The notes under the pieces were generated by a model. It made no database searches, was not told where the DNA came from, and saw only the letters and a program-made list of their open reading frames with translations. 64,000 nucleotides of DNA, taken from assembly GCA_024226555.1 (NCBI GenBank), contig JAAELO010000297.1, forward strand, positions 1 through 64,000, given 5' to 3'. This DNA is from Desulfobacterales bacterium. GTDB taxonomy: Bacteria > Desulfobacterota > Desulfobacteria > Desulfobacterales > JAAELO01. The position numbers and the translations under genes were made by a program. The stretch's first letter is position 1. Every line of letters starts with the position of its first letter. Below, piece after piece: positions 57,161-63,980 of this stretch.

Positions 57161-58267
57161 TTATACATCTTGAACTAATTTCAGCTTTTGACTTTTACAT
57201 TCTAAGTGCCAGTTTTTTAATTTTGAAATAGCTTTATCAGGAATTGAGTCTGGATTTTCACACCAACTTTCAACCGTTTTAATTTTTTTTCTTTCTGTAA
57301 TATCTGCTATTTGTTCGGCTGAAAGTTGATACTCTTTTTGAAAACTGATCAGGTATTTTCCTTTAACATTTTGTGCATTTTGGCCAATTTTGGCTGGTTT
57401 ATTATTCAGCTGATTTTCGGCCATTTTAATTTCGGCCGATTTATTTAAATTGGCCGATTCTTTATTAACACCACTTTCCACGTTTTGGCCGATTTTAGCG
57501 GGTTCTGTTTCAGCTGATTTTCGGCCGATTTCCTGAACTTCATTTCGGCCAGTTTTCGGCCGATTTTCCATATCGGCCGATTGGCTAAAAGTTTCATTTT
57601 CATCATCTTCTGTTTTATCTTTCTGCCAAACATCTGAAGTGGCGAAAATTAATCCTATTGAAAGCATCTCATAAGCGATGACTAAAATTAAAATATACCA
57701 TTTTTCAAAACTGTTTTTACTTGTACTTAAAGGTTCTTTTTCTTTTTTAACTTTTTCTTTCTTGAGTTCAGTTTCTCGCTTAAGGATTTCAGAAACTCTT
57801 TGCTCTTTTTCTTTATAACCTGATCTATCTTTGTTTTTAAATCGATTCTTTACATGATTAGCAGGTAAAGCCTTTAAATCAAAATCAACAGAGTTGATCT
57901 GTTTTAATAAAAATTCTTTTTCTGTTTTGAGACCTGCAAGTTCAGTTTTTATAGACCTTACACTTACTGTAGATTTTGAATAAGAGTCAGTAATGAATAG
58001 ATACATACCTACAAGAGTTAGGGATACAAGAACAACGGAAACAAAAAGATAGTACATCTTTTTCAAAAAGTTGAATGATCCCCATCTCCTGTGAATATAG
58101 ATAAGAACAACAAGTTTTCCGGCTTCAAATCCAGCCCCAAAAAAATATATAATCGTACCTGCCTTGGGAATAAATGAAACCAGACCTTTAATTGAAATAA
58201 ATGTAATTGAACTATAAATAGCAATCATCACACCAGTTAAGATTATACGTACTAATATTTGAATCAT
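57161..58267 (-). CDS. Membrane-anchored protein with coiled coil and C-terminal HTH
   Basis: A 368-aa protein. Three membrane segments come first (about 4-25, 35-52, 75-95), then a coiled coil (about 105-185), a fourth membrane segment (about 190-212), a low-complexity linker (about 215-305) and a C-terminal XRE-like HTH (LSAEQIADITERKKIKTVESW, about 315-335). Such topology would tether a DNA-binding domain to the membrane. The linker is encoded by the palindrome cluster described separately. I start at ATG 58267, 4 nt after AGGAGA; the longer frame overlaps the upstream gene. Role unknown; early prophage gene. Confidence 0.65.
   Translation of the reverse strand: MIQILVRIILTGVMIAIYSSITFISIKGLVSFIPKAGTIIYFFGAGFEAGKLVVLIYIHRRWGSFNFLKKMYYLFVSVVLVSLTLVGMYLFITDSYSKSTVSVRSIKTELAGLKTEKEFLLKQINSVDFDLKALPANHVKNRFKNKDRSGYKEKEQRVSEILKRETELKKEKVKKEKEPLSTSKNSFEKWYILILVIAYEMLSIGLIFATSDVWQKDKTEDDENETFSQSADMENRPKTGRNEVQEIGRKSAETEPAKIGQNVESGVNKESANLNKSAEIKMAENQLNNKPAKIGQNAQNVKGKYLISFQKEYQLSAEQIADITERKKIKTVESWCENPDSIPDKAISKLKNWHLECKSQKLKLVQDV
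57380..57580. repeat. Cluster of nine TCGGCCGA-like palindromes
   Basis: Perfect TCGGCCGA at 57432, 57521, 57556 and 57573; variants TTGGCCAA 57380, TCGGCCAT 57417, TTGGCCGA 57450 and 57485, TCGGCCAG 57545. The motif is an 8-bp palindrome, GC-rich in an AT-rich phage. The perfect copies are read as S-A-E, I-G-R, N-R-P and S-A-D, so they occupy all three codon phases. CAGCTGATTTTCGGCC also occurs twice (from 57408 and 57511). Confidence 0.85.
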
Positions 58268-58275
58268 AATCTCTC

Positions 58276-58524
58276 CTATGAACTCTTGATTACCCATTTT
58301 TGAAGGTAACTAATAAGTACAATTGCTTGTTTTTGATTTATCTCAATAGTATCAAGTTTATCATTTGTAATACTGCAAATATCGCTGAATAAGGTATTAA
58401 CAGTGATATCATTCATAAATTCCTCACCAGACTTTATTACTATGTTTGCATTAATACTATTTGCATCTATCTCATGAACCATCTCTATAATTTGATTAGT
58501 TATTTCTTGTTTGGATAAATTCAT
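58276..58524 (-). CDS. Small early protein (82 aa), unknown
   Basis: Helical, no membrane segment; INANIVIKSGEEFMNDITVNTLF in the middle. AGGAGG-type site upstream. Not recognised. Confidence 0.5.
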   Translation of the reverse strand: MNLSKQEITNQIIEMVHEIDANSINANIVIKSGEEFMNDITVNTLFSDICSITNDKLDTIEINQKQAIVLISYLQKWVIKSS

Positions 58525-58907: not shown

Positions 58908-59519
58908 TTAACATCTTGCAATATCGATAGGTATAGTTTCCCAGTTATCACTCTTATCTTTGTGGTAAAATTGAATATAGGTTTTACTACCATCAATTTT
59001 AATTGAATCAGATATAATACCCATTGCTTTTACCCAGTCCTTATCCTTAATCTTGATCTTTCTTAAACCAAGGATCCTGTCTTTATCCAGATTACCTTTT
59101 TTATCAACTATGAAAGCCTGTTCTATAAGAACCCGGATGTTGTCATGACTTGTTTCAGACCATCTCTTTATGCATTCATCAATTATTGATTTTGCGAGTG
59201 ATAATCTTTCATCGAAGGAAATATGTTTTGTAACTTTTACTTCTACTTTTATTGTGTTAGAAAAATCGGTGTAGATCTTGTTTCCACCTTTAGTCCGCTC
59301 ACTTACATTATACCTTTCTTCAATATAGTTTAGAAATGACTCAATATCATCAAAAACCTTAGCCTTAAATGTAGTTATTCTCTCATTTAATTTAAGAGCA
59401 TTTTTTATGGACCTGACAACCAGCTGATCCCGTTTCTTATCTATCCCATCTATATACTTTGGGGGAATTGGGTTTCCAGATCCGTCTATCCATCTACCTT
59501 CTTTATCTTTTTCAGCCAT
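58908..59519 (-). CDS. DUF3164 family protein
   Basis: A 203-aa protein of the DUF3164 family common in Mu-like phages. Starts MAEKDKEGRWIDGSGNPIPPKYID; the middle has the family's FLNYIEERYN and later RILGLRKIKIKDKDWVKAM. Function unknown; typical of the early transposition block. The conservation of the N-terminal G-x-W-x-D-G motif supports the start. Confidence 0.8.
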   Translation of the reverse strand: MAEKDKEGRWIDGSGNPIPPKYIDGIDKKRDQLVVRSIKNALKLNERITTFKAKVFDDIESFLNYIEERYNVSERTKGGNKIYTDFSNTIKVEVKVTKHISFDERLSLAKSIIDECIKRWSETSHDNIRVLIEQAFIVDKKGNLDKDRILGLRKIKIKDKDWVKAMGIISDSIKIDGSKTYIQFYHKDKSDNWETIPIDIARC

Positions 59520-61106: not shown

Positions 61107-61853
61107 TTATATTCCCTGGACAGCAGTTTCAATTGCTATCTGTGTTATTTCTTTGGTTATTGTTCGGGTTTTCTTACTGTTTAAAATTTGTATAAGTGTT
61201 AATAAAACTACCTTTGCAACTCGGAAATTTCCTGGTTTGCATTTTCCATCGGTTGTTGAATGGATCATATTTGCGCACTCTTCAGGAAGCTCCAGCTCTG
61301 AACTCTTTTTAAAAAAAATCATAATGTCAGGTATCTCCATGTTCTGGAATTCCAGTTCATAATGCGTCCTGCTCCAAACTCTTGTATCACGTCTCATACG
61401 ATCCTTAAGCCCTTCTTCACCAACCATAATAAATGGTGCTCCAGTCACGTCTGATATGTCTCTTGATACATCAAGAAACCTTTCTGACATCCTGTCAGCT
61501 TCATCTAAAAAAACTGGAACTGGCTTATTAAGTAAAGAATCCATAATGATTGCGTTACAGGGACCTTTTCTATGGGGAGGATTTATAGAACCAAGCTCTT
61601 TACAAATTGCTCTTAAGAACTCAAGTTCACTGTTTCCCCAAATTTTTAGCATCCTGATATATATACCCTTCTCATTATCAACACCGTTAATTACGTACCA
61701 TTGACATGTTCTTGTTTTGCCAACACCTGCAGGCCCCACGTTAATTGCAAATCTTCCCTCAGTAGAATCTCCCATACGATCCATCATTACTTCAAAATGA
61801 CGAACATTCTTGTTTTTGACAAACATAGGTGTGTGTGATACTTTTTTTTTCAT
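61107..61853 (-). CDS. Transposition target-selection ATPase (Mu B-like)
   Basis: A 248-aa AAA+ ATPase of the MuB/ExeA type. Walker A GPAGVGKT (40-47), Walker B VPVFLDEADRMS (about 112-123), sensor I region APFIMVGEEGL. In Mu, B binds DNA, recruits A to targets and gives target immunity. The N-terminal HTH of MuB (about 60 aa) is missing here, so it is shorter than MuB (312 aa). AAAGGA precedes the ATG. Confidence 0.9.
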   Translation of the reverse strand: MKKKVSHTPMFVKNKNVRHFEVMMDRMGDSTEGRFAINVGPAGVGKTRTCQWYVINGVDNEKGIYIRMLKIWGNSELEFLRAICKELGSINPPHRKGPCNAIIMDSLLNKPVPVFLDEADRMSERFLDVSRDISDVTGAPFIMVGEEGLKDRMRRDTRVWSRTHYELEFQNMEIPDIMIFFKKSSELELPEECANMIHSTTDGKCKPGNFRVAKVVLLTLIQILNSKKTRTITKEITQIAIETAVQGI

Positions 61854-61883: not shown

Positions 61884-61912
61884 TCGGGTTAAAGCCTGCT
61901 CGCTTTAGCCCG
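61884..61912 (-). promoter_or_regulatory. Hairpin spanning the stop of transposase A
   Basis: TCGGGTTAAAG (61884-61894) pairs with CTTTAGCCCGA (61902-61912) with one G-T type mismatch. It covers the A stop codon and lies 30 nt before the B start. No T-run follows, so it may tune expression of B relative to A. Confidence 0.4.
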
Positions 61913-63980
61913 ATTTTATTTGGTTTATAGTTATTAGGTCGCATCTTCTCTCCTCAAAATACTTTTTGTTATCCTTATATTCAGATGTCTTTTCAAAATA
62001 GATAATAAACGCCTTATACTCATCGGTTAACGGAACTCCTAATGAATCCATTTCAATGAGTTTTTCATATTTGTCAGTATCACTCATCTTATCTATCTCT
62101 GAATTGATATCTTCAGGTTCACAGGTTGGTTCATAATCATCTATTTCAATTACTTCCCCATCATCCTGCATTTTTTCAAGGGCTTTTACCTCGGATTTTA
62201 TTTTTTCAATATCATCCTTGGTAAGCTCTTTTTTCTTTTCTGGAATCTGTTTGACTTCTTGATTACCATTAATATCAAAACCTGAATCCTGTACCCTTTT
62301 ACGTATCTCAGGAATGTATTGTTTTTTAACAATCTCCCTTGTACTGGCTACTGTTTGTTTTTTTAATGATTCTTGTGATTCAAGTTGTCTTTCAAGCTCA
62401 GCTTGCTCAGCTTCAGTTCCAAGTATATTAGCTGCAGGATGAACTCCTATTTGCTTAACAGCTTCACATATGAATTGTTCATCTTTTGCATCATATACGA
62501 GGATTGAGTCACGATTTTGAAGATCGTAATAGACAATTGCCTTATGAGTTCGACCATATAAATACTTATGATTATACCATTTCTTAAAAAGTCGTATACC
62601 ACGCCGTTTAATTTTACGTGTTTCTTCAACAAGCATTAGTGCTCTAAGTTCAAGAGGATTAACCCCAGTTCCAACACCTTTTTCAAATATTTCAAGAGGT
62701 GTTTTACCTGCTAATTTAGATTCAGGACCTTGTTTTCTTCTGCACCACATATCAAGCCATTTACCAATAACTATATGACTATCTTCAAGAGTTGGTGTAA
62801 AGCCTCTTGTTGTTCTCTCATGGAGCAATCTATGGAGCTTTTCTCCTCTATTTTTCCAAACTGGTTTGTTATTGATGCATTCACCGACAAAGGTGGGAGA
62901 CATTCTTTCAAGCTCACCAAATGTTCTGAAGAATCGTTCAATAGGTTTGGCTTGTCCATGATATGGTTTGGCGGTCATAACTGCAATTCCAAGCTTTCTA
63001 TAAAGACCAGGGAGCTTTGTCTGGTTAAAGTTTTTAACACCAGTAAAATAAGTAGCTTTAAAAGCTCTACCATTATCCATATAAACACATTTGGGCATCT
63101 TACCCAGGCGAAGGATTGATCTTCGAAGAGCAACAGAAATACTGTCGATGTTCTCTGTTGGCATAATCTCCCATCCACAGATGAAGCCTGTCTTAAAGTC
63201 AGAAAATGCAACCAACATCATCCGTTTAGGCTTGCCTGTGTATGGATTGATCATTTCAAAATTTAGGACATGACCATCAGCAACAAGGATGTCACCAACT
63301 TCAAGCTTGTCATAATCCCTGCTAAGAGGTGGAATTACTTTATCATTTAAACCTTTTTCACCATGTCTCCAGAATACCCATTGATCATAATTATACTCAA
63401 TCCATTCTTTAAGCCATCGTAAATACGTAGTTTCTGAAAGATTTGTTTCAATATCTTTTTCTCTCATAACTGCAACACATTGACGTATTAGTTCAAGCTT
63501 GGGCTTTCCAGGTGTGTTGTACTGTGATCTAACCAGAGTTAGTATAACTTCTGCTTGTTGCTTTGTTACTTCCCTTTTACCTTTTAAATAATAACCTCTG
63601 TTATCCACAAGACACTCAGGATCCCAGTTGTTATTTTCTAACTTCGTTTTCCAGGCAGAAAGTGTTTTTTCATTTGTCTCTCCAACTTCACGGTAAATAT
63701 CAGGAAATGTTCCAGCTTCACCAAGGTTATAGGACATAAAAAATATTTTTTTAGCTTTTGCTTTCTGTCCATATTTTGCACTGTCTATAGATTTTACATA
63801 TGCCTTTGCAAGTTCTGTTTTTAAATATGCTTTCTCTTTTTGAACCCTTAAAACCTTTTTAACAGGCTTTTTACCTTTAACAGGTGCTGTTATTTGAGGT
63901 TCAACCTTAACTACCTCTTTTGCTTTTTTAAAAAATACAGCAATCACATTCCTAACATCAACTGGAAGGCGTATAACCAT
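61905..63980 (-). CDS. DDE transposase of a Mu-like phage (Mu A-like)
   Basis: A protein of at least 691 aa. Catalytic triad Asp235 (LVADGHVLNFE), Asp302 (VYMDNGRAF) and Glu348 (AKPIERFFR), with MuA-like spacing. A DNA-binding N-terminal region precedes (50-220), and a Glu-rich C-terminus follows (about 600-680), probably the B-interaction part. The frame stays open to the window edge (GIVRKYM upstream of the ATG) and no ribosome site is seen before 63980, so the true start may lie outside the window. It carries out phage integration and replicative transposition. Confidence 0.92.
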   Translation of the reverse strand: MVIRLPVDVRNVIAVFFKKAKEVVKVEPQITAPVKGKKPVKKVLRVQKEKAYLKTELAKAYVKSIDSAKYGQKAKAKKIFFMSYNLGEAGTFPDIYREVGETNEKTLSAWKTKLENNNWDPECLVDNRGYYLKGKREVTKQQAEVILTLVRSQYNTPGKPKLELIRQCVAVMREKDIETNLSETTYLRWLKEWIEYNYDQWVFWRHGEKGLNDKVIPPLSRDYDKLEVGDILVADGHVLNFEMINPYTGKPKRMMLVAFSDFKTGFICGWEIMPTENIDSISVALRRSILRLGKMPKCVYMDNGRAFKATYFTGVKNFNQTKLPGLYRKLGIAVMTAKPYHGQAKPIERFFRTFGELERMSPTFVGECINNKPVWKNRGEKLHRLLHERTTRGFTPTLEDSHIVIGKWLDMWCRRKQGPESKLAGKTPLEIFEKGVGTGVNPLELRALMLVEETRKIKRRGIRLFKKWYNHKYLYGRTHKAIVYYDLQNRDSILVYDAKDEQFICEAVKQIGVHPAANILGTEAEQAELERQLESQESLKKQTVASTREIVKKQYIPEIRKRVQDSGFDINGNQEVKQIPEKKKELTKDDIEKIKSEVKALEKMQDDGEVIEIDDYEPTCEPEDINSEIDKMSDTDKYEKLIEMDSLGVPLTDEYKAFIIYFEKTSEYKDNKKYFEERRCDLITINQIKSG

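Follow-up and report, generated by a model that had tools for sequence, protein, structure and literature searches.

Directly repeated putative protein-binding sites in the linker-coding DNA of a Mu-like prophage gene, possibly read by the gene's own product

An early gene of a Mu-like prophage carries a dense cluster of short GGCC-centred sites within its coding sequence. This raises the question of whether the sites are kept for the encoded protein or as DNA and, in the latter case, which protein might read them. The analysis of the whole stretch of DNA around this gene (64,000 nucleotides, hereafter the window) suggests that the sites probably serve as docking places for a DNA-binding protein, perhaps the product of the gene itself. 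The gene, the domains of its product and its neighbours are as follows.

57161..58297, minus strand: gene for a 378-aa protein with a membrane domain, a disordered linker and a C-terminal helix-turn-helix (HTH), in the early region of the Mu-like prophage
57626..58297, minus strand: N-terminal membrane/coiled-coil domain (aa 1-224), with homologs in Mu-like prophages and in large phages
57161..57370, minus strand: C-terminal XRE/Aca3-like HTH domain (aa 310-378)
58908-59519: DUF3164 gene (context)
61107..61853, minus strand: AAA ATPase gene adjoining the transposase gene, MuB-like by position (context)
61905..63980, minus strand: MuA-like transposase gene (context)

The nearby transposase and AAA ATPase genes point to transpositional replication. 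For the window protein itself, no family could be assigned by Pfam or PHROGs, in which no match to a replication initiator was found either, and the matches in BFVD were uninformative. An AlphaFold model of the whole protein (mean pLDDT 68, built from 8 sequences) contains long helices up to residue 226, a segment of very low confidence from 224 to 309 (pLDDT under 50, predicted as disordered) and then the HTH domain, which reached a pLDDT of 85 when modelled alone. The profile of this domain matches Aca3 (9vt3; E 9.4e-5), and a comparison of its predicted fold with AcrIF25 and Aca2 gave Z 6.4-7.6 (Aca2 folds at 6.4-6.5), a range that taken alone is also within reach of common fold arrangements; a phmmer search with the window HTH alone returned implausible matches only. 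The presence of a C-terminal HTH domain, as proposed in the earlier note, is thus supported by the model and the Aca3 profile match. A single polypeptide would carry both a membrane domain and an HTH, connected through some 80 residues of flexible linker, with a topology that we infer from the predicted helices. The cluster of sites falls within the DNA that encodes this linker.

57367..57580, minus strand: array of nine GGCC cores, consensus AAATCGGCC(G/A)AAA on the coding strand, with 11 TCGGCCGA-like 8-mers; it falls within the linker predicted to be disordered (about aa 239-310)
57380..57387, no strand: symmetric variant TTGGCCAA
57406..57413, no strand: symmetric variant TCAGCTGA
57417..57424, no strand: variant TCGGCCAT
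57432..57439, no strand: exact TCGGCCGA, codon phase 0
57450..57457, no strand: variant TTGGCCGA
57485..57492, no strand: variant TTGGCCGA
57510..57517, no strand: symmetric variant TCAGCTGA, duplicate of the copy at 57406
57521..57528, no strand: exact TCGGCCGA, codon phase 1
57545..57552, no strand: variant TCGGCCAG
57556..57563, no strand: exact TCGGCCGA, codon phase 2
57573..57580, no strand: exact TCGGCCGA, codon phase 0

The earlier note had described nine copies of TCGGCCGA with up to two mismatches between 57380 and 57580. The cluster is real, whereas the count has to be raised to 11, nine being the number of GGCC cores. The codon phases 0, 1, 2 and 0 claimed for the exact copies were recovered at 57432, 57521, 57556 and 57573, and the reported spacing of 11-37 bp holds for the core-to-core distances in the linker. 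Four exact copies occur within 149 bp, with a chance expectation of 0.03 for the window, and the 7.7-Mb genome contains TCGGCCGA in only eight places, half of them in the array. In addition to the 11 copies between 57380 and 57580, a one-mismatch copy is located at 57315. Seven of the eight places in the window with at most one mismatch lie inside the gene (57161-58297), and the motif is nearly absent from the rest of the window. The copies are not all independent, because part of the array stems from an old duplication spanning some 105 bp (57367-57460 versus 57472-57566). No sites of the array type were found at a promoter. The transpositional enhancer of phage Mu is found some 1 kb from the left end, flanked by the genes for the repressor and the transposase. 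The present array is situated 4.3 kb past the stop codon of the transposase gene, and its distance from the repressor-like genes, which are outside the window, is about 8.6 kb. Of the roles listed in the earlier note, those of a transposition enhancer, a replication site and a centromere-like site gained no positive evidence, and no ParA or ParB gene was recognised among the listed ORFs.

Several lines of evidence support a constraint that acts on the array at the DNA level, as the earlier note had argued from the codon phases: the use of three reading frames, rare codons over the motifs only, occurrence of the motif in other frames in distant homologs, and copies beyond a stop codon. The 28 codons overlapping the GGCC cores are rare for this phage (log likelihood -49.3 versus a simulated mean of -27.9), and none of 20,000 codon simulations was as extreme (lowest value -40.0), a test in which the copies are not independent draws because they are partly duplicated. 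By contrast, codon choice in the linker is unremarkable away from the cores (P 0.84), as it is in the remainder of the gene, and the spacers contain 25% GC versus 65% in the site 8-mers. Between the two halves of the duplication, GGCCGAAAATCAGCTGAA was retained base for base despite the different reading frames. Motif columns were conserved at 35 of 39 positions versus 53 of 76 for spacer columns (P 0.02), which provides modest support because the alignment favours conserved blocks. Unlike a protein-coding tandem repeat, which keeps one frame and a period that is a multiple of three, the copies in the window and in the related phage L042 occupy three frames at irregular spacing; the linker copies of two other relatives, L008 and L070, do have a single frame and such a period.

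A phased alternation of A-tracts and GGCC could also produce a curved-DNA element, as A-runs alternate with GGCC every 9-18 bp. However, a wedge model placed 57400-57650 between the 4th and 68th percentile of the window, with higher values only beside the array and no peak at it, and this candidate, which deserves scarcely any credence, was rejected.

Approximately 10 members of the gene family were collected by profile and pattern searches. The window protein alone, used directly as a query against viral and genome contigs, retrieved no relatives; these were obtained from searches that used alignments and from searches of whole genomes. A scan of viral contigs that used DNA only (three nearby GGCCRAAA) yielded 37 stretches, one of which, in the Mu-like phage L042 (63% GC), is a homolog of the array gene and carries the motif in the corresponding linker, a finding that is independent of the protein sequence because the DNA pattern alone was used. 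Most of the other CGGCCRAA arrays in viral contigs proved to be protein repeats of regular period that stay in frame. A composition-matched control pattern gave 22 matches with varied spacing. L042 contains 11 GGCCRAA spread over three frames. The L008 linker contains 12 GGCC cores spaced 9-15 bp apart, and another six follow the stop codon; the GGCC array directly past the stop (L008:2091-2160) shares 94% identity with a 34-bp portion of the linker array, which indicates recent copying. In L070, seven cores are present, which occupy a single frame inside a repeat. The three proteins share 23-27% identity with the window protein, and the commonest frame reads IGR/IGQ in the window versus TAK/TAE in L008 and L070. 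Taken together, these genes demonstrate that a disordered linker can carry DNA signals whose frame shifts between relatives.

The motif common to all array bearers is AAA(A/T)CGGCC(G/A)AAA on the coding strand, arranged as direct repeats. The 8-bp palindrome emphasized by the earlier note is not the motif of the family, since the other members have ACGGCCRAAA, in which at most CGGCCG is palindromic; it is peculiar to the window phage because the family motif consists of direct repeats with directional flanking A runs. As the family motif has a direction, a palindromic site for a dimer is not established.

Self-complementary units might alternatively have been selected in the mRNA, where hairpins would slow translation or stabilise the message. 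RNA folding z-scores of -4.7 (window), -6.0 (L042) and -6.0 (L008) are in line with such selection, but scores of this size are expected from any palindromic repeat, the two-change window variants TCAGCTGA and TTGGCCAA keep their own symmetry and pair worse with the other sites, and no Rfam match was obtained. Selection on the mRNA is thus considered very improbable.

The tentatively preferred explanation is that the array represents a set of directly repeated putative DNA-binding sites (AAAWCGGCCRAAA) kept in tolerant linker-coding DNA, with the protein's own HTH as the likeliest reader and membrane tethering or self-repression as the result. The array would be retained in this part of the gene because nearly any protein sequence is acceptable in a disordered segment. 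The N-terminal helices would anchor the protein in the inner membrane, and many XRE/Aca3-like HTHs on flexible linkers could bind many close sites. Two outcomes are conceivable: the gene's own DNA may be held at the membrane, resulting in cis tethering of the phage DNA, or transcription of the gene may be blocked by a roadblock feedback. The binding, the identity of the binder and the outcome are, like the membrane topology, what we infer from these features. Reading by the own HTH is favoured by the rare motif codons next to normal spacer codons, by the recurrence of the motif in the linker and by the scattered distribution of the four array bearers, which fall on three separate branches of a weakly resolved family tree. 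On the other side, L005, L017 and L087 keep the membrane domain and the HTH with short linkers and no array, and the linker copies in L008 and L070 are in one frame, as expected of a protein repeat. Some repeat units of L070 also retain Thr-Ala-Glu (TAE) but have lost GGCC through a synonymous change to GCA, which favours selection at the protein level there. An outcome that the earlier note had named as refuting its proposal, relatives that retain the protein while losing the sites, is thus partly observed in L005, L017 and L087; L042, L008 and L070 keep the motif. L005 (G000 contig C124), an approximately 34% identical homolog, belongs to a second prophage of the same host genome. In favour of the own-HTH reading, the array is absent from L010 and L013, which have a different C-terminus, and from L009, which has none; the association between HTH and array is not significant in so few genes.

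A more specific and quite unlikely version of the own-HTH reading is a self-tethering gene, in which the protein would be inserted into the membrane during synthesis, its linker-borne HTH would bind its own gene and the genome would be clamped in cis, so that the linker-coding DNA would provide both the tether and the docking site.

Two serious rivals to the own-HTH reading should be considered. A non-functional, minisatellite-like GGCC/A-rich unit may have expanded through slippage and duplication, within a disordered linker that tolerates any frame, and been inherited or regained in relatives, which would agree with the duplication of about 105 bp in the window array, the 9-bp periodic TAK/TAE repeats of L008 and L070, the copies beyond the L008 stop codon and the deletion that arose naturally in L019 between GGCC repeats. 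Nevertheless, the cores are GC-rich and made of rare codons in a phage of 34% GC whose spacers are fully AT-rich, the motif including its A flanks also occurs in a phage of 63% GC, and several reading frames are used; a neutral repeat is considered rather unlikely.

The other rival, which is judged unlikely, is functional DNA read by a different factor, such as another phage regulator, a host nucleoid protein, gyrase or a GGCC-recognising modification enzyme, with a linker that simply tolerates the sites. It would accommodate the three HTH-bearing homologs without an array, and a tandem with a similar unit, ATCGGCCAAAA(G/C)ATCGGCCAAA, has been found in other phages, where its 20 flanks are unrelated and have no neighbour gene in common, so a widespread reader of the motif may exist. 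However, the array recurs on separate branches of one gene family, and the window has hardly any copies outside the gene.

With regard to known systems, the own-HTH reading has two partial parallels. The origin of phage lambda lies inside gene O and contains four 19-bp inverted-repeat iterons bound by O, the replication initiator (PMC5043065, PMC4488673). The array gene similarly contains repeated sites within the gene of a phage protein with a DNA-binding domain, their binding being putative here, but it encodes a predicted membrane protein with a C-terminal HTH, it contains numerous short sites at irregular intervals, and it belongs to a transposase-encoding, Mu-like phage. Binding of the protein to its own linker DNA, if it occurs, would extend the principle of sites inside the binder's gene to a membrane-anchored protein and would offer a testable way in which the genome of a transposing phage could be anchored at the membrane. 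The Aca3 and Aca2 autorepressors are small soluble proteins whose promoters contain one or two inverted repeats as their sites (PMC9410906, PMC8434428). The window HTH is likewise phage-borne, related to Aca3 in sequence and to Aca2 in predicted fold, and has candidate DNA sites at its own gene; it differs in forming the end of a 378-aa protein rather than a small stand-alone one, and in having many sites within the coding region instead of an inverted repeat in the core promoter. By analogy, the array gene would at most work like lambda O or Aca, and it is assigned to neither group. Membrane proteins of the large phages RAS14, XacN1 and immuto have a homologous N-terminal domain and, unlike the window protein, neither HTH nor array. 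In RAS14 (L014) and XacN1 (L015), this HTH-less homolog is encoded within a cluster of replication genes, and in XacN1 it adjoins a sliding-clamp-loader gene.

The exact 22-bp tandem noted above has 44 occurrences in viral contigs, in all frames or intergenic (loci L098, L146, L149, L152, L163, L167, L169, L171, L175, L179, L185, L188 and others); a literature search for it returned nothing, and near-matches are present in Agrobacterium and Sphingobium plasmids and in Caulobacter phages. Lastly, the nearly identical phages L018 and L019, with 4 substitutions in about 10 kb, are separated by a 116-bp deletion between GGCC-rich repeats (L018 5729-5844), which removes the HTH domain from the family protein.
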